NCBI RefSeq assembly: GCF_004360225.1
Contig: NZ_SNUA01000001.1
Coordinates: forward strand, 434,001 to 498,000
From: Alcanivorax sp. 24
Lineage (GTDB): Bacteria; Pseudomonadota; Gammaproteobacteria; Pseudomonadales; Alcanivoracaceae
DNA: 64,000 bases
Direction of reading: 5' to 3'
The translations under genes were made by a program, and so were the position numbers. Below are positions 52,637-64,000 of this stretch, piece by piece. Below the pieces are notes generated by a model, which was not told the DNA's origin, ran no database searches, and was given only the letters and a program-made list of their open reading frames with translations. Position 1 is the stretch's first letter. Each line of letters opens with the position of its first letter.

Positions 52637-53101
52637 TCAGTCTTTCTTATGATTCCAAAAGCGCAAGTGAAGAGCAGCGGCTTCTTCTTCCAGTAGTGGT
52701 CCGATCACTTGCACGGTGCTCCGGCCGGCTGCGAACGCCTGAGACACATTGAAAAACGAGGTGGAGAAGGCGATGAAGAATCCCAGTCCGTTTTCGGCGG
52801 CGACGAATTCCGCTACCACGGCACCAATGATGGCCAGTGTGATGGAAATGCGCAGCGCGGAAAAAATATGGGGCACCGCGAAGGGTAATCGAATGTTGCG
52901 GATCTCACGCCAGCGGCTGGCGCCGAGGGAACGGGACAGCTCGATCAATTCCGGGGGCGCCGACATTAATCCAGTGACGGTTGAGACGACGATGGGAAAG
53001 AAGGTGATCAGGAAGGTAATGACGATACGGGGAGCGTCACCGGCCCCCAGAACCACCACGATAATGGGCGCCAAAAGCAGAGATTTGTTGCCAGACCGGC
53101 A
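52637..53101 (-). pseudogene. ABC permease fragment (TauC/SsuC-like), 5'-truncated
   Basis: Reading NKSLLLAPIIVVVLGAGDAP, FFPIVVSTVTGL, LGASRWREIRNIRLPFAVPHIF (the EAA loop) and GLGFFIAF, this is the C-terminal part of a nitrate/taurine-type inner-membrane permease. The N-terminal helices are gone; the upstream frame fuses directly with a binding-protein remnant at about 53095-53110. The last residues (EEEAAALHLRFWNHKKD) do not look like a normal end. It is downstream on the strand of the amidase-GntR unit, so it was probably part of that operon. Confidence 0.8.
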
Positions 53102-53590
53102 TCATTCTGAGCTGCGAAAAAATACGGGCGGGAAAGCCCGGGCCCGCGTCCACTTCCGCCCCCTTCGCTTTCAGCGCTACTCCCACTTGTTGGGGATCAC
53201 CAATAGCTTTTTTTCGCGCCTGGCGCTGAATGGACAGTACCTTTTTGACCAACTCCGGCTTTTTCTTGATCAGACGGTCGAATGCAAACATCGAGAGGTC
53301 ATAGCCATCAAAGCCATAATCGGGCCAGGGTAAACTCCGGGTCTCTTTGCTGGCTTGCTTAACTAAGGCGTTGAAGGCCGGCATCCTGGTGACCCAGTTG
53401 ATGATGCCGTCCACCCGGTTGGTACTCATCAGCTGCCCATGGCCGCGGGATCCGCCTTGGTCACACGCACATCGTCCGGCGACATGCCGGTGCCTTCCAG
53501 GACCAACGGCCAGGTGACATTGGAGGCGGAGAAGGTGGCGGTGGCGGGATTCTTTCCTTTCAAGTCATCCAGACTTTGACGTTGGAGTCA
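53102..53590 (-). pseudogene. ABC substrate-binding protein fragment (NMT1/TauA-like), frameshifted
   Basis: Two frames give one protein: SLDDLKGKNPATATFSAS and LEGTGMSPDDVRVTKADPAAMG, then, after a one-base shift near 53440, QLMSTNRVDGIINWVTRMP, WPDYGFDGYDLSMFAFD and KKPELVKKVLSIQRQARKKA. These are the middle region of NMT1/THI5-like binding proteins. The N-terminal part and signal peptide are missing and the C-terminal side is cut at the permease junction. A stop lies four codons upstream of the first readable segment. Confidence 0.75.
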
Positions 53591-53597
53591 GCGCTGA

Positions 53598-53816
53598 CAA
53601 AAAATCGCATCCAGACATGATCTCCAGTTCAATGTCTTCGGGCCGGCGAACAGCCTGATCAAAGCGGATACCCCGCGGATGGAAGACGCGCTGATCGCTT
53701 ACAGCATCGATAAGATGCAAAGCGAGAGGATCCTGCTTTCCAGCGATGCCGAGGGCGGCCGGTGCGGTATCATGAGTGACCTGCGCTTTGTGCGAGGGCT
53801 TTATCCGGAGGATTGA
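53598..53816 (+). pseudogene. C-terminal remnant of an ABC substrate-binding protein, opposite strand
   Basis: Plus-strand reading gives LQFNVFGPANSLIKADTPR, MEDALIAYSIDKMQSERI, LLSSDAEGGRCGIMSDLRF and VRGLYPED. This matches the C-terminal end of NMT1/TauA-like binding proteins, which the minus-strand fragment lacks. It lies just past the minus-strand remnant, with a TGA at 53595 in its frame. It overlaps the 3' end of the GntR gene. An inversion of the original gene end explains the pattern; a second decayed gene is the alternative. Confidence 0.55.
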
Positions 53817-54532
53817 TTGTCCGGAGAGGAGGACGGGATGGAGTCCGGACCGCCACGGGTATCCAGATAGTCCCGTGAGGTGCGGTGGGCATGCAGAACA
53901 TGGTCGCGAATCAACTGGGCGGCCCGCTCGCTTTCGCCACGAACGATGGCCATGACAATGTCGCTGTGTTCGGTGAAGGAAGCGGACAGGCGCTCCCCCA
54001 CTCTGAATTGCGCGCGGCGGTAGGCCAGCACCCGTGAGCGGGCGGCCATGGCGGTTTCATACAGATAGCTGTTGTGGCAACCGCGAAACAGCTTTTCATG
54101 GAAGAGCAGGTTGGCCGCGTCGTAGGCGTCGACGTTACCGTCGGCCACATGAGCGTGGCTGTCCAGATGGCTGGCAAGCAGATCTTCCCGTTCCGCGCGG
54201 GTCATATTGAGCGCCGCCATGCGCGCGCAGGCCGCTTCCATTTCCGCCGCGTATTCAAACATTTCGCTGAGCCGCTGTTCCGGCACTTCAATGACGAAGA
54301 CGCCGCGCCGGTGCTGGTGCTCCACCAGGCCGGCGGAGGCCATCTCCCGCAACGCCTCGCGTACCGGAGTGCGCGATACGTCGAAGCGCCGGGCCAGGGC
54401 AATCTCGTCCAGACGTGTGCCCGGCGGGAGCAAGCCGCCGAGAATCTCATCGGACAGGGCACGCCGGATCTGTTCCGCCAGCGGGCGGTCGTCCTCGTCG
54501 GCGGCACTGAGCACGGTGGTCTGTTGTGTCAT
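53801..54532 (-). CDS. GntR-family regulator, FCD type
   Basis: A 243-residue FadR-subfamily regulator. The winged helix has LADQIRR-like LAEQIRRALSDEILGG, GTRLDEIALARRFDVSRTPVREALREM and GVFVIEV; the C-terminal FCD domain follows, with metal-ligand type residues in NLLFHEKLFRGCHNSYL. ATG 54532 lies 5 bp after the stop of the AtzH-like gene, with GGAGGAG over that stop. It is third in the amidase unit. TGTATACA palindromes upstream of this operon and of the HpxW/TauE operon are candidate operators. Confidence 0.9.
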   Translation of the reverse strand: MTQQTTVLSAADEDDRPLAEQIRRALSDEILGGLLPPGTRLDEIALARRFDVSRTPVREALREMASAGLVEHQHRRGVFVIEVPEQRLSEMFEYAAEMEAACARMAALNMTRAEREDLLASHLDSHAHVADGNVDAYDAANLLFHEKLFRGCHNSYLYETAMAARSRVLAYRRAQFRVGERLSASFTEHSDIVMAIVRGESERAAQLIRDHVLHAHRTSRDYLDTRGGPDSIPSSSPDNQSSG

Positions 54533-54537
54533 GACAC

Positions 54538-54921
54538 TTACTCCTCCATGAACGACACATGGGCGGCCACGACCCGCCATCCCTCCGGGCGGCGGGCCCA
54601 GACCTGACTCTGGCGACCGGTGCGCGGGTTCCCCGGGCGGCGGAACTCGGTCCAGGCGGTGGCCAGATCGTCGCCATGGGCGGTGATCACGGTGTTATGT
54701 AATTCACGTTGCAGTCCCTTGGACGGTCGTTGCGCGCGGAAGGCGGCAATTCGCCGATAGCCGTAGAGATTCTCGCCGGCACCGTAGCGCACCACCCGTT
54801 CGTCGTTCCAGAACAATTCGTCCAGGACCGTCACATCATTTTCGACCAGTGCTTTCTCATAGCGCAGGAATGCGGCTTTGACTTCCGCCACCACGTTCGG
54901 TCGGTCCAGTTCCAGGGTCAT
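54538..54921 (-). CDS. AtzH/HpxZ-like (DUF3225) NTF2-fold protein
   Basis: A 127-residue protein of the AtzH/HpxZ family: AEVKAAFLRYEKALVENDVTVLDELFW, RYGAGENLYGYRRIAAFRAQR and WAVVAAHVSFM-like WRVVAAHVSF. Such proteins accompany amidase genes in the atzGEH and hpxWXYZ ureide clusters. HpxZ is linked to oxalurate use, but its chemistry is unclear. Downstream of an amidase and upstream of GntR, it supports a small-amide or ureide pathway. Start ATG 54921; 39 bp after the amidase stop. Confidence 0.82.
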   Translation of the reverse strand: MTLELDRPNVVAEVKAAFLRYEKALVENDVTVLDELFWNDERVVRYGAGENLYGYRRIAAFRAQRPSKGLQRELHNTVITAHGDDLATAWTEFRRPGNPRTGRQSQVWARRPEGWRVVAAHVSFMEE

Positions 54922-54960
54922 TATTACTACTCCTCATTATTACTCTTCGGGGCCGGCGCG

Positions 54961-56130
54961 TCAGGTGCTGATGAATTCGGGCAGGCGGGCCGCCAGATCC
55001 AGCAGCTGTTGATCGCTGCCCGCGGGCCCGATCAGTGACAGCCCCACCGGACCATGCTGGTCATGCAACAGCGGCAAACTCAGTTGCGGCAGCCCGGTGG
55101 TGCCAGCCAGCGCCGTCATTCGCAGGGTGCGGCCGCGGATGTTTTCCACCCTGGCTTCGTCGGCTTGCAAGGGCAGGGCCGAGGTCGGCGTGGTGGGCAG
55201 GCAAAGCAGGGTGTCTTCGCCGAGCAGAGCGCGGATCCGGGTGCGCAAGGCCTGACATTGTTCACGGGCATCCTCGGCTTCGGCGGCGGTGATGCGCGAT
55301 GCCGCTTCGAAGCGTTCCTTCACACCGGGACCGAAGACCGGTTGCTCGACTTGGATCCAGGAGCCGAAGCGGGCCCAGGCCTCATAAGCCTGCAGGGGCC
55401 GGAACGCGTTGAAGTAGGTGTCCAGGTCGCCAACACTGATGCTGCCGCCAAAGGTCACGCCGGGCAGGCCGTCGCCGACCCGCGCTTCCAGCTGCGACAC
55501 CACGTCGGCATCGGATTGCGCCAACGCCTCCTCCACCAGCAGTAAACGACGCGGCGCGGGCCGGTTACTGGTGGGCAGCAGAATCCGGCCAAGCCGGGAC
55601 ATGAGTTCGGCGTCCCGGGCGAACCAGCCGAGGGTATCGAAACTTTCCGCCAGGTGGGCGCAATGACGGTAATCCACCACGCCATGGGTGGGGCGCAGCC
55701 CATGGATGCCGCAGTAGCTGGCCGGCACCCGCACTGAACCGCCGGTGTCGCTGCCCAGCGCGAAGTCCACCAGCGCGGCGGCCACCACCGAGGCGGAACC
55801 GCTGGAAGAGCCGCCGGGTACCGCGCCCGGCACCGCCGGATTGGGCGGCGTGCCATAGTGTGCGTTCTGGCCCGCCAGGCTGTAAGTCAACTCGTCGGTG
55901 TGGGTCTTGCCGATCAAATCCGCGCCCGCCGCCAGCAGGGCTTCGATCATCGGGGAGGTGTGCCGCGCTGGCGGCTGGCTGGCGCGCCAACTCGGCTGGC
56001 CGACGCCGGTAATGGTTCCGGCCACGTCGAACACGTCTTTGACGGCGAAGGTCAGGCCTTGCAGCGGGCCCTGTCCGGTGGCGTCGAGGCGCACTGGGTC
56101 GAAATCGAGAAAGCCGTTTTCCAGTATCAC
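54961..56130 (-). CDS. Amidase-signature hydrolase (AtzE/HpxY-like context)
   Basis: A 389-residue amidase. The Ser-cisSer-Lys triad fits: K31 in FAVKDVF, the cis-Ser near S108-S109 in PGGSSSGS, and nucleophile S132 in GSDTGGSVR. GTG 56130 is chosen as start: GGAGG lies 8 bp upstream and the protein then begins with the family fold. A 14-codon frame with its own AAGGAG ends in a TGA overlapping that GTG (GTGA). In ureide clusters such amidases act with an AtzG/HpxX small subunit; no clear one is seen. Its order before AtzH-like and GntR genes suggests a carboxy-biuret or oxalurate-type substrate. Confidence 0.85.
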   Translation of the reverse strand: MILENGFLDFDPVRLDATGQGPLQGLTFAVKDVFDVAGTITGVGQPSWRASQPPARHTSPMIEALLAAGADLIGKTHTDELTYSLAGQNAHYGTPPNPAVPGAVPGGSSSGSASVVAAALVDFALGSDTGGSVRVPASYCGIHGLRPTHGVVDYRHCAHLAESFDTLGWFARDAELMSRLGRILLPTSNRPAPRRLLLVEEALAQSDADVVSQLEARVGDGLPGVTFGGSISVGDLDTYFNAFRPLQAYEAWARFGSWIQVEQPVFGPGVKERFEAASRITAAEAEDAREQCQALRTRIRALLGEDTLLCLPTTPTSALPLQADEARVENIRGRTLRMTALAGTTGLPQLSLPLLHDQHGPVGLSLIGPAGSDQQLLDLAARLPEFIST

Positions 56131-56757
56131 CGCCGGATCCTCCGGGGGCAGCGGCCAGGAAGGCGTTGCATTGGTGTGCTCCTTGAGATCCTTGATACGT
56201 CCAAGGCGGACGGAGCAGTGTTCGTGCCAATCTTCGGTGCCCGGAAAATGCGGGGTTGAGAGGCGCGCCGGATAGGGCGGGCCCCGTTACGGGGCAGGGA
56301 GGTGATGGTGTATACAGAAATGGGGCAGGCGGACATTCACGAGTGAGCTTTCCACAGCGGCCTCGTGATGCTTGCTGGCAAAGGCCGCTAGCCTTATAGC
56401 GACCTCCAAAGTCAGGTTTCCAGCCCCCGCCGCTAAGCAGGGGGGCGTGGATTGCGGGCCCGCCAGCGTCCCGGCAAACCGAAGTCGGCGCCAAGCCTGA
56501 CTACCGTGGAATAAAAGATATGAGGTTTACTCATGAATTTCTGAAATATTATCATTATTTTTCATGGTGCGGTTCCGGTATAAAACCCCCCGTTGTTCAT
56601 TACCCGGGAACACACCAAGGCTGATTCCCCGGCAGACCGCCCAGTGCAGGCATTTGGAGTCTGAGCAGGCCGCCGGGTCGATCCAGTCCGGGGTGTTCCG
56701 GAACGAATCGGCAATATGAGCCGATCTCATCTTGGATTATCAGGATGCCCGACAGCC
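56131..56757. promoter_or_regulatory. Amidase-mesX divergent region with palindromes and structured leader
   Basis: The gap holds a hairpin GCCCCG-TTA-CGGGGC (56281-56295), the palindrome TGTATACA at 56309-56316, a REP-like remnant (56347-56366), and an AT-rich promoter-like stretch (CATGAA...TTCATG arms at about 56532-56566, TATAAA at 56579-56584). Downstream, 56603-56725, several stems can be drawn: CCGGGAA/TTCCCCGG, CAGAC/GTCTG, TCCGG/CCGGA and ATCGGC/GCCGAT. This suggests a structured mesX 5' leader. No consensus cobalamin or SAM riboswitch was found by eye. Confidence 0.55.
56309..56316. promoter_or_regulatory. TGTATACA palindrome upstream of the amidase operon
   Basis: Perfect 8-bp palindrome about 179 bp upstream of the amidase GTG. 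A longer form, TTGTATACAA, lies 90 bp upstream of the TauE/HpxW-like operon (63672-63681). FCD-type GntR proteins commonly bind such TGTATACA cores. The same 8-mer also occurs by chance in gltB coding DNA (101-108). Confidence 0.55.
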
Positions 56758-57741
56758 ATGAATAAAGAGTTTGTATTCTCCCTTGACAGCATTCGTTTCG
56801 ATGAGCACTACCAGCCGTCGAGCGCGACGCGCCTGACCACCAACTTTGCCAATTTGGCCCGGGGTGAGAGTCGCCAGGAAAACCTGCGTAATACGCTGAA
56901 GATGATCGACAGCCGCTTCAACGACCTGGCCCACTGGGATAATCCGGAAGGCAATCGCTACAAAGTCGAGCTGGACATCATTTCCGTACAAATGGAGATC
57001 GGTGCCGACGGCCGCGCTGCCGCGCTGCCGCTGATCGAGATACTGAAAACCACCATCGTCGATGGCAAGCACAACGCGCGCATTGAGGGCATCGTCGGCA
57101 ACAACTTCTCGTCCTACGTGCGTGATTATGATTTCAGTGTGCTGCTGCTGGAATACAACAAGAATCGCGATCGCTTCAGTGCGCCGGACGGTTTCGGCGT
57201 CCTGCACGGGCAGATATTCCGGAGTTTCGTCAACTCGGATACCTACCGGGAGAACTTCAGCAAGGCGCCGGTGATTTGCCTCAGTGTGTCAAGTAGCAAG
57301 GTGTACCACCGCACCGACAATCAGCACCCGGTGCTGGGCGTCGAGTACCAACAAAACGAACTTTCGCAGACCGATGAGTACTTTAAAAAAATGGGCATGA
57401 AGGTGCGTTATTTTATGCCGCCCGACAGTGTCGCACCGCTGGCGTTTTACCACACTGGTGATTTGTTGTCCGACTACACCAACTTGGAACTGATCTCCAC
57501 CATCAGCACCATGGAGTCTTTCCAGAAAATCTACCGTCCGGAGATCTATAATGCCAACTCGGCCGCTGGACACTGCTACCAGCCTAGCCTGAAGCACCAG
57601 GATTACTCCTTGACTCGGATTGTTTACGACCGTGAAGAACGTAGCCGGTTGGCCATTGAGCAGGGCAAGTATGTAGAGGAATGTTTCATCAAACCGTACC
57701 GCGGCATTCTTGAGCAGTGGTCGGCCAATTATGCCCATTGA
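56758..57741 (+). CDS. mesX: DUF1852 protein MesX, accessory to methionine synthase MesD
   Basis: A 327-residue DUF1852 protein. The start MNKEFVFSLDSIRFDEHYQPS and following NFANLARGESRQENL are the family's hallmark. MesX is required with MesD for methionine formation in bacteria and may be an oxygenase-like partner. ATG 56758 is chosen because the family begins there; upstream in-frame starts lie in the leader. It is 12 bp before mesD and is followed by a flavin reductase gene, consistent with a three-gene unit. The methyl donor and exact reaction are unresolved. Confidence 0.9.
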   Translation: MNKEFVFSLDSIRFDEHYQPSSATRLTTNFANLARGESRQENLRNTLKMIDSRFNDLAHWDNPEGNRYKVELDIISVQMEIGADGRAAALPLIEILKTTIVDGKHNARIEGIVGNNFSSYVRDYDFSVLLLEYNKNRDRFSAPDGFGVLHGQIFRSFVNSDTYRENFSKAPVICLSVSSSKVYHRTDNQHPVLGVEYQQNELSQTDEYFKKMGMKVRYFMPPDSVAPLAFYHTGDLLSDYTNLELISTISTMESFQKIYRPEIYNANSAAGHCYQPSLKHQDYSLTRIVYDREERSRLAIEQGKYVEECFIKPYRGILEQWSANYAH

Positions 57742-57753
57742 TAAACGACAAGC

Positions 57754-58797
57754 ATGGGATCATCGGTCATGAATAAATTATTGCCCACTTCGACAGCGGG
57801 CAGTCTGCCCAAGCCCTCCTGGCTGGCACAGCCGGAGACCCTTTGGTCGCCGTGGAAACTGGAAGGCGAAGAACTGGCGTCTGGAAAGCAGGACGCCTTG
57901 AGCTTGTCGTTGCAGGAACAACAACAGGCAGGCATTGATATCGTCAGTGACGGCGAGCAGAGCCGCCAGCATTTCGTCACCACCTTCATAGAACATCTGG
58001 ACGGCGTGGATTTCGAGCAGCGCGAGACGGTCAGGATCCGCGACCGCTACGACGCCAGCGTGCCCACGGTCAAAGGCGCGGTGAGCCGCCAGAAGCCGGT
58101 GTTTGTCGAGGACGCCAGGTTCCTGCGCCAACAGACCTGCAAACCGATCAAATGGGCTTTGCCAGGTCCTATGACGATGATCGATACCCTCTACGACGCC
58201 CACTACAAAAGCCGCGAAAAGCTGGCTTGGGAATTCGCCAAGATTCTCAACCAGGAAGCCAAAGAGCTGGAAGCGGCGGGGGTTGACATCATCCAGTTCG
58301 ACGAACCAGCCTTCAACGTGTTCTTCGATGAGGTGAACGACTGGGGCATCGCCACGCTGGAGCGGGCTATTGAAGGACTCAAGTGCGAAACCGCGGTGCA
58401 TATCTGCTACGGCTACGGCATAAAAGCCAACACCGACTGGAAAAAAACCTTGGGGTCCGAGTGGCGGCAGTATGAGGAGATCTTCCCCAAGCTGCAGCAA
58501 TCCAACCTTGATATCATTTCGCTGGAGTGCCAGAACTCCCGCGTTCCGATGGAGCTGGTCGAGCTCATTCGTGGCAAAAAAGTGATGGTCGGAGCCATTG
58601 ACGTGGCCACCCATGCCGTTGAAACACCGGAGCAAGTCGCCGACACACTGCGCAAGGCGTTGCAGTTTGTCGATGCGGACAAGCTGTGTCCATGCACCAA
58701 CTGTGGCATGGCACCGCTGCCACGTGGCGTGGCACGTGCCAAGCTGCGGGCACTGAGTGCCGGCGCCGAGATCATCCGGCGGGAATTGGCCGGTTGA
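57754..58797 (+). CDS. mesD: Core-MetE methionine synthase MesD
   Basis: A 347-residue homologue of only the catalytic C-terminal half of cobalamin-independent methionine synthase MetE. Zinc ligands appear intact: H216 and C218 in VHICYGYG, E258 in LECQNS and C317 in CTNCGM. The family start (LLPTSTAGSLPKPSWL) is clear; M57769 is an alternative to ATG 57754. It lacks the folate-binding N-terminal half, so the methyl donor is probably not polyglutamyl folate; in the MesD family it is unidentified. It follows mesX and precedes a flavin reductase. Confidence 0.9.
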   Translation: MGSSVMNKLLPTSTAGSLPKPSWLAQPETLWSPWKLEGEELASGKQDALSLSLQEQQQAGIDIVSDGEQSRQHFVTTFIEHLDGVDFEQRETVRIRDRYDASVPTVKGAVSRQKPVFVEDARFLRQQTCKPIKWALPGPMTMIDTLYDAHYKSREKLAWEFAKILNQEAKELEAAGVDIIQFDEPAFNVFFDEVNDWGIATLERAIEGLKCETAVHICYGYGIKANTDWKKTLGSEWRQYEEIFPKLQQSNLDIISLECQNSRVPMELVELIRGKKVMVGAIDVATHAVETPEQVADTLRKALQFVDADKLCPCTNCGMAPLPRGVARAKLRALSAGAEIIRRELAG

Positions 58798-58916
58798 GTG
58801 CAGCCATGGTATCGGCAGGGTGAGGGGACGATGATTCCGGCCGCACCTCATTGGCGAGGGCGGATGAGGCCGATCGTCCGCAGCTCCGAGTGACCACCCA
58901 GGAATCAGGATTGACC

Positions 58917-59420
58917 ATGTCATGTTTCAGTTCGGCCATTGATCCCGCTCGCTTTCGCGAAGCGCTGGGTTACTACGCATCCGGCATCACGGTGATTTCG
59001 TCACAGCTGGACGACGAGCCGGTGGGCTTCACCTGCCAGTCGTTCTACAGTGTGTCGATGAACCCGCCTCTGGTGTCTTTCAGCGTGATGTCCAGCTCGT
59101 TGAGTTATCCAAAAATCCGTTGCGCGGGCCGCTTTGCCGTCAACATCCTGGCCGGTGAGCAGGTGGCCATTTCCAACCAATTTGCTCGGCGCGGCGCCGA
59201 CAAATGGGAGGGGATCGAGCGTCACCAATCGCCGCTCGGCAATCCGGTGATCGCCGGGTGTTTGCATTGGTTTGATTGCGAGGTTCACGCTGAACATGTC
59301 GCTGGTGATCACGTCATTGTGATCGGTGAGGTGAAGGCACTGAAGCTGCAAGAGGCGGGGGAGGAACAGCCGCTGTTGTATTTCAAAGGGCAATACGCAA
59401 CCCTGCCGGGTCTGGCGTGA
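58917..59420 (+). CDS. Flavin reductase family protein
   Basis: A 167-residue FMN/FAD reductase-like protein (ALGYYASGITVISSQLDD, VGFTCQSFYSVSMNPPLVSFSV, FAVNILAGEQ). Such proteins supply reduced flavin to oxygenases. ATG 58917 follows AGGA at 7 bp; earlier in-frame starts are not family-like. As the third gene after mesX and mesD, it may serve MesX, a proposed oxygen-dependent factor; this is inference. A 119-bp gap from mesD holds no clear terminator. Confidence 0.88.
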   Translation: MSCFSSAIDPARFREALGYYASGITVISSQLDDEPVGFTCQSFYSVSMNPPLVSFSVMSSSLSYPKIRCAGRFAVNILAGEQVAISNQFARRGADKWEGIERHQSPLGNPVIAGCLHWFDCEVHAEHVAGDHVIVIGEVKALKLQEAGEEQPLLYFKGQYATLPGLA

Positions 59421-59537
59421 GGCGGGGCCTCATGTCTGCTGGGTGAGCAGGCGCTGCTGTTCCGTGCCGGCGTCTATGAGTTCAAGGTCCGGCCAGCGGC
59501 GTCAGTGTGCGCCGCCAAGCGGCCAACGGTGTCCGCT

Positions 59538-60992
59538 TCAGTCTTCCGGTTTTGAGGCGTCCGCCTCAAACCACTGTGGCCAGGAGCTGCGGTGCCGGTC
59601 GTCCGCACTGATGCAGGGGATCAGCGTTTGCGCCAGCATCGGTAACCGATCGGCGGATTTGGCAAGGCGGTATTTGACGCTGTGTATGCACTCCCGGTCG
59701 CCAAACTCACAACGGTTCAAATAAGTGCCGCCACAGGGGCCGTTGGCGAGACCTTTCGGGCAGGTTTCCGGGCAAACGTACACCGTGTCTTGCAAGCGAC
59801 AGCTGCCACAGGTGTCGCAGCCCACCAGCGGTCGTTTGATGGCCCGTTCCGCCGCATGCAGTGCCGCACCGCCTATCGTTGTCTTCCAGATCCGTCGCGT
59901 CACCAGCCAGCCGAACGCCCGGCTGAGTAAACTGCCGCGTTGGAAAAACAACCGGTGGACCGTGGCAAGCCTGCGGTAGCGTCGGTGCTCCGAATCGGTG
60001 GCTCGGGCGCCGGGCCGTCCCAAAGCACGGACGTCGATATCGGGAGTAAAGCAAACCTCGGGCCCGCCGGGCAGTTGCCAGCTTGCGCGCCACTCTGAGT
60101 GCCACGCATCCAGTGAGCTCACGCGCTCACGTAGAGCGGTCAGATGTTGTTCCAACAAGAGGAGTTCCTCCAACGTATGCACGCCGGACAGATGGATGCC
60201 GGCATATCCCATCCATTGCAGGCCCAGTATTTGCAGCGCCAGACGTTTAAGGCTTCGTGTATCGGCGTCGTCCTGCGACAGGCGTGTTTCGCTATCCAGC
60301 ATCTGGCGCATGGAGTCGGTGATAACGATGCCGGGTACCGACTGCAACGCCGCGGCGCGCTGTGCGGTTAGCCGCATCACACAGGCCAACATCGGCGTGC
60401 TGTGTGGCTGCGCGTGCATCCACTGCTGGGCTTCAAGGTGCCTGGCGGCATCGTAGCCGAGCTGAAGGGTGAAAAAGTCAGCGCCGGCACGCTGCTTTTT
60501 CCGCGCCTTCAAATACTGTGCTTCGGCTTCTTCTTCCAGGTATTTGAACGGATTCAGCGCGGCGTCCAGCAGCCAGTCCGGACAGGATTCCCGGACAATT
60601 TGCAGTGCAGGCACCGACTCCAGATAACGTACCGGGGCTTGGCCGGGACAGTGGCCAGGCAGGCGGTCGCCGGTGAGCAGCAGCAGTTGTTTCAAACCCC
60701 GCGCCTTCATCAAGCCCAGTTGGTTCAGCAAGTCCGAGCGCTCGCGATCCTTGCCGGAAAAGTGCAGCAAGGACGAGGTCGGGCAACCCAGCGCTTCCGC
60801 TCCTTGCAAGGGGCCTGGATCCGAATGCGGGCCGACACGGTCGGCGAAGGACGGCACTAGCAGTCCACCCGCGAAATGACCGCGCTGCAGGATTTTCCCA
60901 AGCGCCGCCACGTGCGCTGCGGACTGCCGGGGAAGAACCTCCATTACGCAGACGAAGCGGTGTGCGTCCAGCGCCTGTTTCAGTATGGTCAA
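59538..60992 (-). CDS. MTHFR-like protein fused to a Cys-rich MTHFR_C domain
   Basis: About 484 residues. The N-terminal part resembles methylenetetrahydrofolate reductase barrels (CVMEVLPRQS, LLLLTGDRLPGHCPG, LNPFKYLEEEAEAQYLKARK, GADFFTLQLGYD). The C-terminus holds a metal-binding domain: CDTCGSCRL, CPETCPKGL, ANGPCGGTYLNRCEFGDREC. No ATG fits; TTG 60992 is the best start candidate, but is uncertain. The long upstream frame overlaps the next gene and is not coding-like. Convergent to the mes operon, it may provide or process one-carbon units for MesD. That is a context inference. Confidence 0.78.
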   Translation of the reverse strand: MTILKQALDAHRFVCVMEVLPRQSAAHVAALGKILQRGHFAGGLLVPSFADRVGPHSDPGPLQGAEALGCPTSSLLHFSGKDRERSDLLNQLGLMKARGLKQLLLLTGDRLPGHCPGQAPVRYLESVPALQIVRESCPDWLLDAALNPFKYLEEEAEAQYLKARKKQRAGADFFTLQLGYDAARHLEAQQWMHAQPHSTPMLACVMRLTAQRAAALQSVPGIVITDSMRQMLDSETRLSQDDADTRSLKRLALQILGLQWMGYAGIHLSGVHTLEELLLLEQHLTALRERVSSLDAWHSEWRASWQLPGGPEVCFTPDIDVRALGRPGARATDSEHRRYRRLATVHRLFFQRGSLLSRAFGWLVTRRIWKTTIGGAALHAAERAIKRPLVGCDTCGSCRLQDTVYVCPETCPKGLANGPCGGTYLNRCEFGDRECIHSVKYRLAKSADRLPMLAQTLIPCISADDRHRSSWPQWFEADASKPED

Positions 60993-61125
60993 AACTGTCC
61001 GGTACCTTGGCTGTTGGAGGCCCTTGTTGTGATGGCCCCCTGACAATTGAGTTTGGGATGGGATATTGGTGGCGGAAGGCCTGGGGCGCCTGGCAGTGGC
61101 GGCCCCGAGGGTGTGGGTGCGGGGC

Positions 61126-62718
61126 TCAGAGCGTCGCGACGGTACCGTCGCTGCGCGGGTCGGCGGCGCCTTCCAGTAGGCCATTGGGATGGCGTACCAC
61201 GGCGCCGGCGTGGCCCATGGTGTCGCTGAAGTCTTCGTCCAGCACTTCCACCTGATGGCCGGCATCGCGTAGTTGTTGCGCCAGGGCGGGGTCAAAACGC
61301 GCTTCCAGTTTCAGGCTGGTGCTTTGTTCCCCCCAGGTTCGGCCGAGTAGCCAGCGCGGTGCGGTCACGGCCTGTTGCAAGGGCTGATTGAACAGGGCGT
61401 AGCGGCTGAAGACCGCGGCCTGGGTCTGGGGTTGGCCCTCGCCGCCCATGGTGCCGTACACCATGGTGCGGCCGTCATCGAAGCGAGCCATGGCCGGGTT
61501 CAGGGTATGGAACGGTTTGCGCCCCGGTTTCAGGGTGTGCAAGGCGGCGTCATCCAGGGAGAAACTGACGCCCCGATTTTGCCACAGTACCCCGGTGGCG
61601 GGCAGCACGATGCCGGCACCAAATTCCCAGTAAGTGCTCTGGATGAAACTGGCGCAGCGGCCTTCGCGGTCGATGCAGCCCATCCAGATGGTGTCGCCGG
61701 GTTGCGCCGGGTAAGGCCAGGGCAGCGCGCTCTGGCGGTCGATGCGGCGCACCCGCTCGGCCAGATCCGATTCGCTGAGAAAACGGGCCGGATCCTCGCT
61801 CATATAGGCCGGGTCGGTGCAATACTGGTCGCGTACCAGGAACGCCTGTTTAGTGGCTTCCACCAGCCCGTGGAGGTGATCGAAGCCCTCGCCGTCCGTT
61901 ACCCCGAGCCGGTCGAACAGGCCAAGAATCATCAACGAGGCCATGCCTTGAGTGGGAGGGGGTTGGTTATACAGCGTGCTGCCCCGCAGGCGCACCGACA
62001 GCGGTGGTAACGTCCGCGCCTGATAGCCGGCCAGATCCTCGCGGGTGAGCGGGCTGCCGGCCCGGGCCAGGTCCTCGGCCATGGCGGTGGCCAGCTCGCC
62101 CCGGTAGAAATCCTCGGTGCCGGCCTGCCCGATACGTTCCAGGGTGGCGGCCAGTCCTGGCTGCCGCAGAATGGCACCTTCCACCGGCACCTGGCCCTGG
62201 TCCAGGAAGGTGTCGGCGAAGCCGGGCACGGAAGCCAACTCTGACAGCTTCCGCCGGGTCAGTTGTTCCTGGCCGCGGGTCACCGCCACGCCGTCCCGGG
62301 CATGCCGCTGGCCGTCTTCCAGCAGGCGAGCGAGTGGCAGTTCGCCTCCCCATTGACGTGCCACGTTCATGGCCTGACCCCAGCCGCCAACGGTGCCCGC
62401 CACGGTGAGCGCCGCCAGCGGGCCACGGGTGGGGATGCTGTCGTGGCCATGTTGCCGGTAGTAGTCGACATCCGCGGCGGCAGCGGCGGTGCCACAGGCT
62501 TCGATCGCCACCGGCGCCTCGCCGGGAGCACCCAGGATCCAGAAACCGTCGCCGCCGATGGCGTTCATGTGCGGGTACACCACGGCGATGGCCGCCGCCG
62601 CCGCCACCATGGCCTCGGCGGCGTTACCGCCTTCGCGAAGCACATCCCGGCCGGCTTGGGCGGCCAGATGATGGGGGGCTACCATGACGCCACCGAGAGC
62701 GCGTTTGGTCGTCAACAT
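61126..62718 (-). CDS. HpxW-like gamma-glutamyltransferase-family hydrolase
   Basis: A 530-residue GGT-fold proenzyme. Family signs: GGNAAEAMVAAAAAIAVVYPHM, NAIGGDGFW, PPPTQGMASL and the autoprocessing region GDTIWMGCIDREG, where Thr would be the new N-terminal nucleophile. This loop differs from the TTHFSV of classical transpeptidases and is like oxamate amidohydrolase HpxW. No signal peptide is seen, so it is cytoplasmic. ATG 62718 follows GGAG, 24 bp after the TauE/SafE gene. With the amidase/AtzH-like genes nearby it supports oxamate or oxalurate degradation, not glutathione breakdown. Confidence 0.83.
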   Translation of the reverse strand: MLTTKRALGGVMVAPHHLAAQAGRDVLREGGNAAEAMVAAAAAIAVVYPHMNAIGGDGFWILGAPGEAPVAIEACGTAAAAADVDYYRQHGHDSIPTRGPLAALTVAGTVGGWGQAMNVARQWGGELPLARLLEDGQRHARDGVAVTRGQEQLTRRKLSELASVPGFADTFLDQGQVPVEGAILRQPGLAATLERIGQAGTEDFYRGELATAMAEDLARAGSPLTREDLAGYQARTLPPLSVRLRGSTLYNQPPPTQGMASLMILGLFDRLGVTDGEGFDHLHGLVEATKQAFLVRDQYCTDPAYMSEDPARFLSESDLAERVRRIDRQSALPWPYPAQPGDTIWMGCIDREGRCASFIQSTYWEFGAGIVLPATGVLWQNRGVSFSLDDAALHTLKPGRKPFHTLNPAMARFDDGRTMVYGTMGGEGQPQTQAAVFSRYALFNQPLQQAVTAPRWLLGRTWGEQSTSLKLEARFDPALAQQLRDAGHQVEVLDEDFSDTMGHAGAVVRHPNGLLEGAADPRSDGTVATL

Positions 62719-62742
62719 GTCGTGTTCTCCGGGCCGTGGCGG

Positions 62743-63582
62743 TTACAGCAAACCGTACAGCATGCGTAGTGAAGTCAGGAAAAGGAAAAAGGCAAAAACC
62801 TGCCGTAACCGGTCGGCGTTCACCGCGTGGGCGATGCGCGCGCCGATGGGTGCCATCATCATGGTCATCGGCACGATCAGCGCCAGACCGGCCAGATTGA
62901 TGTAGCCGAGGCTCATCGGCGGGCGATTGGGCACGCCCAGACCATTGATCAGAAAGCCAATGGCACCGGGCAGGCTGATCACCATGCCGATGGCGGCGGC
63001 GGTGCCCACCGCGCGGTGGATCGGGTAGCCGAAAGCGGTTAGCAAGGGGACGCTCAGCGTGCCGCCGCCGATTCCCATGAGCGTGGAGAAACCGCCCACC
63101 AGAGTGCCGATGATCTGTTTGAACGGGGTCGGCGGCAGATCGTCGGTCAGTGCCAGGCCCTTGCTGCGGAACGCCATGTTGGCGGCCACCAGCAGAGCGA
63201 CCACGGCGAAGATCGCGGTCAGGGTGGTACCGCGCAGATAGCCACTGATGGCGATGCCGATCAGTACGCCCACCAGCAAGGCGGGCCCCCAGGTTCGCAG
63301 CAGGGAGACGTCCAGATTGCCCTTCCTGGCGTGGGCCCGGGACGACATGATCGAGGCGGGAATAATAGTAGCCAGGGAGGTCCCCACCGCCACGTGCATT
63401 TTCACTGACTCGTCCACACCGAGCAGGGTGAACAGGTGATACAGCACCGGCACCACCACGATGCCGCCGCCCACCCCCAACAGACCGGCCAGCAGGCCGG
63501 CGATGATGCCGGTGGCCAGCAGCGCCACTACCAGCCCGGCCAGCCATCCGACACTGTGACCACTCAGAAGCTCCACGATCAT
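62743..63582 (-). CDS. TauE/SafE family anion exporter
   Basis: A 279-residue membrane protein with the family's paired repeats: GLLAGLLGVGGGIVVVPVLYHL and GFSTLMGIGGGTLSVPLLTAFG, and about eight membrane segments. Members export sulfite, sulfoacetate or other organic anions. First in a two-gene unit with the HpxW-like gene; its substrate may be a carboxylate product such as oxamate or oxalate. A TTGTATACAA palindrome 90 bp upstream of ATG 63582 suggests regulation by the nearby GntR protein. Confidence 0.9.
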   Translation of the reverse strand: MIVELLSGHSVGWLAGLVVALLATGIIAGLLAGLLGVGGGIVVVPVLYHLFTLLGVDESVKMHVAVGTSLATIIPASIMSSRAHARKGNLDVSLLRTWGPALLVGVLIGIAISGYLRGTTLTAIFAVVALLVAANMAFRSKGLALTDDLPPTPFKQIIGTLVGGFSTLMGIGGGTLSVPLLTAFGYPIHRAVGTAAAIGMVISLPGAIGFLINGLGVPNRPPMSLGYINLAGLALIVPMTMMMAPIGARIAHAVNADRLRQVFAFFLFLTSLRMLYGLL

Positions 63583-64000
63583 CCCCAGACGATTTGATCT
63601 TCGCCGGCCGGGCTATTTCCCGGGCGCGACTCCAGGTTCCCCTAAAGGAAATTTTGGCTAGGATGCCATTTTTGTATACAAGAATAAAGTGCTGATTTAT
63701 AGGTGTTTTTAGGAATTACATGGGCTATTTGGGGGCGACCTCATGTTATTGCACCAATATTGTGCATTGCTGTTCAGGGTTTGGCACGGCGTGGTGGTTG
63801 CGATGTGTTTTGTTGTGGCAAGAGAAGCGGGGGTAGATTTCAGATCGAGGTTTGTGACTTGTTGACTTTTATGGTTTTGTTTTGTCTTCCGAAGCCGGTG
63901 GGTTGATTGGATGCTCGGTCCGGCATTCCAATAGTGGTTATTGAGTATCCACTCTTCTGAACGGGGGCATCCGTGTTTGCAGTAAAAGCCACCCAGCATG
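63583..64000. other. AT-richer window end with no supported gene
   Basis: GC content falls visibly after 63650. Small frames on both strands (for example 63703-63906 and 63709-63999) have composition unlike the neighbours and no recognisable family. The only defined site is the TTGTATACAA palindrome at 63672-63681. A gene may begin beyond the window edge. Confidence 0.5.
63672..63681. promoter_or_regulatory. TTGTATACAA palindrome upstream of TauE/HpxW-like operon
   Basis: A perfect 10-bp palindrome 90 bp before ATG 63582, in AT-rich promoter-like DNA. It extends the TGTATACA site upstream of the amidase-GntR operon and is a candidate operator for that FCD-type GntR regulator. Confidence 0.6.

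Follow-up and report, generated by a model that had tools for sequence, protein, structure and literature searches.

Two operons in a 64-kb stretch of the genome of Alcanivorax sp. 24 (contig NZ_SNUA01000001.1; the whole stretch is called the window below) have the same short palindrome upstream, which raises the question whether they form one regulon and, if so, which regulator reads the palindrome. One of them, operon A, is TauE-HpxW. The other, operon B, is amidase-HpxZ-GntR1, where GntR1 is the FCD-type GntR regulator of the window and GntR2 denotes a second such regulator in relatives. The genome of the window (4.76 Mb in 99 contigs) is labelled G000; labels with G stand for genomes and those with L for loci fetched from genomes. 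An original prediction, made from the letters alone, had joined the two operons into one candidate GntR regulon for ureides. Judging from sequence comparison, we propose a purine/ureide nitrogen regulon whose repressor, an FCD-type GntR protein, has the palindromes as its operators; this protein would be GntR1, and we give this whole explanation a probability of roughly 0.6.

Palindromes in the window and the genome

The two candidate operators are as follows.

63672 to 63681, no strand: operator 1, TTGTATACAA, upstream of TauE-HpxW, an extension of the TGTATACA copy at 63673-63680
56309 to 56316, no strand: operator 2, TGTATACA, upstream of amidase-HpxZ-GntR1

The distance to the gene start downstream is 89 bp for operator 1 (TauE, 63582) and 178 bp for operator 2 (amidase, predicted GTG at 56130). 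The 8-mer TGTATACA occurs in the window at 101-108, 56309-56316 and 63673-63680, with no further copy. These three copies compare with 0.16 expected, and 0 of 100 shuffles got to three; chance is disfavoured, and the palindromes are where they had been placed. The copy at 101-108 falls within a long open reading frame (ORF) resembling, by eye, the glutamate synthase large chain, which agrees with the single copy that had been placed in gltB coding DNA. Over the whole of G000 the 8-mer has 10 copies, against 2 for the reversed control, and exact TTGTATACAA has three. Six of the seven copies outside the window are in ORFs taken as coding (by eye, from ORF lists), one of these six being antisense to the listed ORF; the seventh stands between par-type and ATP-synthase genes. 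This last copy (C4:120408) was considered as a third target and dropped, with none of the 12 sites of the relative G182 found in such a place (by eye).

Conservation of the sites in relatives

The named genome collection was scanned with HpxZ and the best 80 loci were kept. A GntR1 orthologue stands beside HpxZ in ten of them (L062-L069, L071 and L072), with an identity of 67-93% in L062-L069 and slightly below 60% (tblastn) in the Marinobacterium loci L071 and L072. The original prediction had proposed to look for the palindrome in orthologous promoters, and it is found there: TGTATACA is upstream of the GntR1 operon in 10/10 of these loci, and the aligned regions upstream of TauE from eight genomes (the window and L062-L068), in which 67 of 260 columns are invariant, have a single invariant run that reaches 6 bp, TGTATACAA. 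The longest invariant run upstream of the TRAP-amidase operon of five loci, L064-L068, is GTGTATACATTC. The weight of this conservation rests on two clades whose proteins are about 20-35% different, for close relatives alone prove little. The link between the two operons also stands, in that they are together in one cluster in relatives, each with a palindrome: in the seven Alloalcanivorax/Alcanivorax loci L062-L068, TauE-HpxW adjoins the GntR1 operon directly or about 3 kb off and has a palindrome of its own. The shared palindromes are thus very likely genuine operators, in a regulon of a known kind.

The counterparts of operator 2 are CTGTATACAT in L062 and L063 and GTGTATACAT in L064-L068. 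About 3 kb separates the palindrome from the amidase in L064-L068, L071 and L072, and this interval holds ORFs of a TRAP transporter (DctPQM) in L064 and similar-looking ones in L071 (by eye), which suggests a carboxylate substrate. Two of the four short genus loci first fetched with HpxZ and GntR1, L056 and L057, have no palindrome in the fetched stretch, because in that clade it is about 3 kb upstream of the amidase and beyond that stretch; the longer L064 and L068, from the same places, have it.

The 8-mer is found at some point of the stretch in 12 of the remaining 70 HpxZ loci, these 12 all being Enterobacterales by record title. In the three that were examined (L093, L077 and L110) a GntR gene is bracketed by two copies. 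The bracketed gene of L093, from Rahnella, adjoins PuuE and an NCS1-like permease, and the HpxW/HpxZ-type genes of that locus are without the 8-mer. From its context, we take this Rahnella regulator to be HpxS.

Loss of a purine cluster around the operons

GntR2 orthologues (72-98%) and urate oxidase occur in the same eight of 13 genus genomes, the urate oxidase of G299 having an internal stop. The purine/ureide cluster, recognised by the presence of both, is absent from G000, which has neither. GntR1 orthologues at 76% or more occur in nine genomes, namely these eight and G000. The 8-mer is present in 10-16 copies in the eight genomes with GntR2 and in 0-4 copies in the other four besides G000. 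The list of sites is complete for six other genus genomes, five with the cluster plus G296. The copies within 28-37 kb around the operons are 6 of 12 in G182, 9 of 13 in both G043 and G294, 10 of 13 in G295 and 6 of 10 in G293; G296, without GntR2 and urate oxidase, has four copies in all. The sites of G182 include one at a guanine deaminase-like gene (model score under cut-off), one separating PuuE allantoinase from the consecutive genes of hydroxyisourate hydrolase, urate oxidase, allantoicase and ureidoglycolate lyase, and one immediately in front of GntR2, with an 8-oxoguanine deaminase gene after it; G043 is similar by eye. Outside the cluster of G182, TGTATACA also precedes an ORF resembling, by eye, an ABC substrate-binding protein (L176:3001), a possible further target in relatives.

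The window is collinear with G182 over 53778-56332 and 61126-63881. The G182 stretch from 11045 to 39581 (about 28.5 kb, with GntR2 and purine genes) is missing from the window, with another gap, of about 6.5 kb, close by.

53612 to 53641, no strand: scar of the lost purine cluster, between transporter remnants, where G182 11045 abuts 39581 (synteny break)

The stretch 52637-53800 holds ABC-transporter remnants, with internal stops in the frame tried and with pieces matching four separate G182 stretches, and these remnants mark the deletion scar. The cluster of G000 appears to be a reduced and interrupted remnant of a larger purine-breakdown cluster; it is a known kind of system in an unusual degraded form.

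The candidate regulator and its promoter context

53801 to 54535, minus strand: GntR1, FCD-type GntR regulator (PF00392 and PF07729)

The recognition-helix stretch VSRTPVREAL and three histidines of the FCD domain are invariant in the five GntR1 orthologues aligned. According to PMC4494728, GT and AC are 2 or 3 nt apart in sites of the FadR subfamily of GntR regulators, the 2-nt form being that of HpxS, MdcY and a few others. Both operators are GT-AT-AC, with the 2-nt spacing of this HpxS and MdcY class, so that the site would most naturally be read by an FCD regulator, as had been supposed; operator 1 (TTGT/ACAA) also fits the TKGT/ACMA boxes published in that paper. GntR1, the one of the two cluster regulators still in G000, is the best candidate at present and a likely assignment.

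Under this explanation GntR1, encoded with the amidase and HpxZ, would bind both sites as a dimer and repress its own operon and TauE-HpxW. A small carboxylate amide, such as oxamate or oxalurate, in the FCD domain would release it from DNA, and nitrogen limitation would call for transcription, at least of the amidase operon, via NtrC and sigma54. GntR2 probably acted on these operators too until it was lost.

For the nitrogen side of this mechanism, one element was found at each operon of the window by use of the general consensus patterns of NtrC and sigma54.

63750 to 63766, minus strand: NtrC-like site TGCACAATATTGGTGCA, upstream of TauE, one mismatch to the consensus
56214 to 56229, minus strand: sigma54-like -24/-12 element TGGCACGAACACTGCT, at operon B, one mismatch to the consensus

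The TGCACAATATTGGTGCA place is the sole one in the window at one mismatch or fewer, the two listed hits being one place because the pattern is palindromic, and an NtrC-like site with one mismatch lies 77-87 bp from the TauE palindrome in all four genomes scanned (window, G182, G043 and G294), the distance being 78-87 bp in the last three. The 16-mer TGGCACGAACACTGCT is identical in G182, and an element with one mismatch is at the equivalent place in G043 and G294. In the sequences scanned, 14 of 33 palindromes, which are not independent because orthologous sites were counted separately, have a sigma54-like element (at most one mismatch) within 110 bp. The controls, with slightly different flank rules, gave 0-17% by sequence for random intergenic positions and a mean of 0.17 with a maximum of 2 of 33 for 60 scrambled consensuses. 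The window has the NtrC-like element at operon A and the sigma54-like one at operon B, not both at one promoter; in G043 and G294 the TauE promoter has the two together. Operon A in the window, as in L062 and L063, is without the sigma54 -12 half present in L064-L068, because of a 10-bp gap in the alignment. A sigma70 scan near TauE gave no promoter-like match.

Weighing the regulator

Several findings weigh against this explanation. Operator 2 (CTGT/ACAC) departs at both outer bases from the TKGT/ACMA boxes of PMC4494728, and it is without the outer T of relatives (CTGTATACAC vs CTGTATACAT). Eight of the 13 genus genomes have the second FCD GntR, with the 8-mer a short way upstream of the gene for it, and G000 is the only one of the 13 to have GntR1 (nine genomes) without GntR2 (eight genomes), so that its sites could be relics of GntR2. 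The 8-mer is near other GntR genes in at least four of nine outside genomes and is therefore not specific to one regulator, and another FCD regulator of G000 (L026) has overlapping GTATAC cores upstream. Finally, 19 of the 33 sites are without a sigma54-like element nearby, among them all three of L069 and the one at TauE in the window. With these points counted, we still lean, without great assurance, to GntR1 as the present regulator of both sites.

A class-wide search for GntR1 in 369 genomes (E of 1e-45 or better, at most seven candidates scored per genome) found, besides G000, two distant genes (42% and 45%), with no GTATAC in their loci, and thus gives no help in separating GntR1 from GntR2. 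It is conceivable, as a tentative idea, that GntR1 and GntR2, distantly related at about 26% identity, read one operator, and that GntR1 became the sole reader of the two remaining copies, under sigma54/NtrC, once GntR2 and the purine genes had been deleted.

The most serious alternative is that the sites belonged to GntR2, an HpxS-like protein, alone, that GntR1 uses another site and that the palindromes of G000 are orphaned relics. In its favour, a copy of the 8-mer lies at most about 105 bp ahead of the matched stretch in 8/8 GntR2 genes, operator 2 of the window has one outer change, and GntR2 is 34% identical to the Rahnella GntR over 217 residues (117 bits), a gene flanked on both sides by TTGTATACAA with no GntR1 orthologue found in the stretch. 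The alignment of GntR1 with the same Rahnella protein covers no more than 69 residues (41%, 42.7 bits), and GntR1 does not qualify as an HpxS orthologue. However, the HpxW/HpxZ-type genes of the Rahnella locus are without such a site, and the GntR1 operon of Marinobacterium has two sites, although the GntR2-like genes there are only 33-36% identical and, in G303, those on the same contig are about 305-340 kb away. Moreover, both 8-mer cores are intact in the window despite a divergence of 7-10% of the aligned stretches from L062. We consider that GntR2 alone is an unlikely owner of the sites.

It is hardly probable that some other FCD regulator of G000 binds the sites, the operons belonging to a wider or different regulon. 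The genome has ten FCD proteins, the L026 regulator has its overlapping GTATAC cores upstream of its own gene and similar sites are near other GntR genes in outside genomes; on the other side, the sites are concentrated in the GntR1/GntR2 cluster in 5/5 of the cluster-bearing genomes listed in full, and copies number only 0-4 in the four genus genomes that lack GntR1, GntR2 and urate oxidase. That the palindromes are chance occurrences of an AT-rich 8-mer in intergenic DNA is very improbable in view of the shuffle test, the clustering across genomes, the alignment footprint and the keeping of the site in two Alloalcanivorax clades, even though 8 of the 10 copies in G000 are elsewhere, seven of them in DNA taken as coding.

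As a separate observation, overlapping GTATAC cores are upstream of a different FCD GntR gene at L046:6285-6297 (G000) and L171:3001 (G182), and in G182 that gene adjoins an AMP-ligase-like ORF (by eye). These cores may be a related operator of another regulon.

Genes of the two operons and the probable substrate

62743 to 63582, minus strand: TauE/SafE-family membrane protein (Pfam PF01925, E 6.6e-51)
61126 to 62718, minus strand: HpxW-like gamma-glutamyltransferase-fold hydrolase (PF01019), candidate oxamate amidohydrolase
54961 to 56130, minus strand: amidase of the PRK08310 family (NF006169, 466.5 bits vs cut-off 391)
54538 to 54921, minus strand: HpxZ/AtzH-like protein (NF033625, 201.8 bits vs cut-off 135; PF11533)

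The genes had been likened to the hpxWXYZ and atzGEH sets, and the likeness stands for HpxZ, which exceeds its NCBIfam cut-off and has the solved-structure match 6bjt, and, as a candidate, for the HpxW-like protein. The best solved match of the HpxW-like protein is 5hft, which we take to be Klebsiella HpxW (E 3.2e-89 and 3.1e-82 for two chains), and its score against the gamma-glutamyltransferase model TIGR00066 is 316.6 bits, under the cut-off of 357.85. The likeness does not extend to the amidase, which belongs to PRK08310 and is not of the HpxY/AtzE type: it reaches 196.5 bits (cut-off 461) and 193.6 bits (cut-off 425.75) with the AtzE models, under half of the cut-offs, which restricts the atzGEH comparison to the AtzH/HpxZ part. 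An HpxX/AtzG gene was not noticed in the ORF list of the window (80 aa or longer), in which no search was aimed at it. Of the substrates named before, oxamate, oxalurate and biuret, these two results make biuret the less likely, and the guess is narrowed to oxamate/oxalurate-type compounds.

An ORF of 14 codons with a good ribosome site (56127-56171) overlaps the GTG start of the amidase, with a similar one in L062 and L063 (by eye); it may be a leader peptide or what is left of lost transporter genes. Four genus genomes (L058-L061) have a second HpxZ copy, 51-53% identical and missing from G000, which in L061 is preceded by an isochorismatase-like ORF (by eye).

The inserted methionine module

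56333 to 61125, no strand: inserted module; homology to L062 and L063 ends at 61126 and 56332
59538 to 60992, minus strand: methylenetetrahydrofolate reductase (MTHFR)-like gene (profile family match)
58917 to 59420, plus strand: flavin reductase (profile family match)
57754 to 58797, plus strand: MesD-like methionine synthase, the name MesD being assigned after PMC7857596
56716 to 57741, plus strand: MesX (PF08908)

The two operons had been described as split by a methionine module. The module does lie between them, and the description is to be corrected in that it is evidently an insertion, which split the operons and spared operator 2. Homology of the window with L062 breaks at 61126, in the HpxW stop codon, and returns at 56332, 16 bp before operator 2; L062 has 176 bp in place of about 4.79 kb, and only one genome of the 13 in the genus has MesX. 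PMC7857596 describes a MesX/MesD pair with a flavin reductase nearby. The MTHFR-like gene lies downstream of HpxW on the same strand and might be transcribed by read-through from it.

Implications

A guess from two sites has become a testable regulon with a visible history, in which relatives represent the intact purine cluster and the genome of the window what remains after deletion of the pathway core and one of two regulators. For an FCD regulator not yet characterised, the analysis supplies a set of targets and a class of candidate effectors, and it prompts the question whether operators are shared between paralogous GntR proteins. If GntR1 did take over, the oxamate-type module would be a free-standing regulon and a natural experiment in which the regulator was replaced on an unchanged site.

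Comparison with known systems

Among the literature matches listed, no title concerned the regulation of hpx genes; those listed for the letters of the motif included none on a GntR site, and those for purine use in Alcanivorax none on the genus. The hpxWXYZ operon of Klebsiella serves oxalurate and oxamate and has in common with the window an HpxW-like protein and HpxZ. The window differs in having a PRK08310 amidase for HpxY, in two transcription units, in having TauE (or a TRAP transporter in L064) and in that HpxX was not noticed, without an aimed search. The atzGEH genes of Pseudomonas, for cyanurate and biuret, share with it the AtzH-like protein (PF11533; 6bjt match) and an amidase; here the amidase is far under the AtzE cut-offs, AtzG was not noticed, again without an aimed search, and the context in relatives is one of purine genes.

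The folate-independent methionine synthase module MesX-MesD, as given in PMC7857596, shares with the window MesX, the core methionine synthase and the neighbouring flavin reductase. In the window this module lies outside the regulon, inserted between its operons.

The HpxS regulon of enterobacterial purine catabolism (PMC4494728) has the same type of FCD GntR and a TTGTATACAA-type operator with 2-nt GT..AC spacing, and in the Rahnella locus the GntR gene stands beside PuuE allantoinase and the NCS1-like permease. The window differs in that its regulator would be GntR1, which is not an HpxS orthologue, in that the core purine genes are gone, and in that, unlike in Rahnella, the site is found at the HpxW- and HpxZ-type genes themselves.

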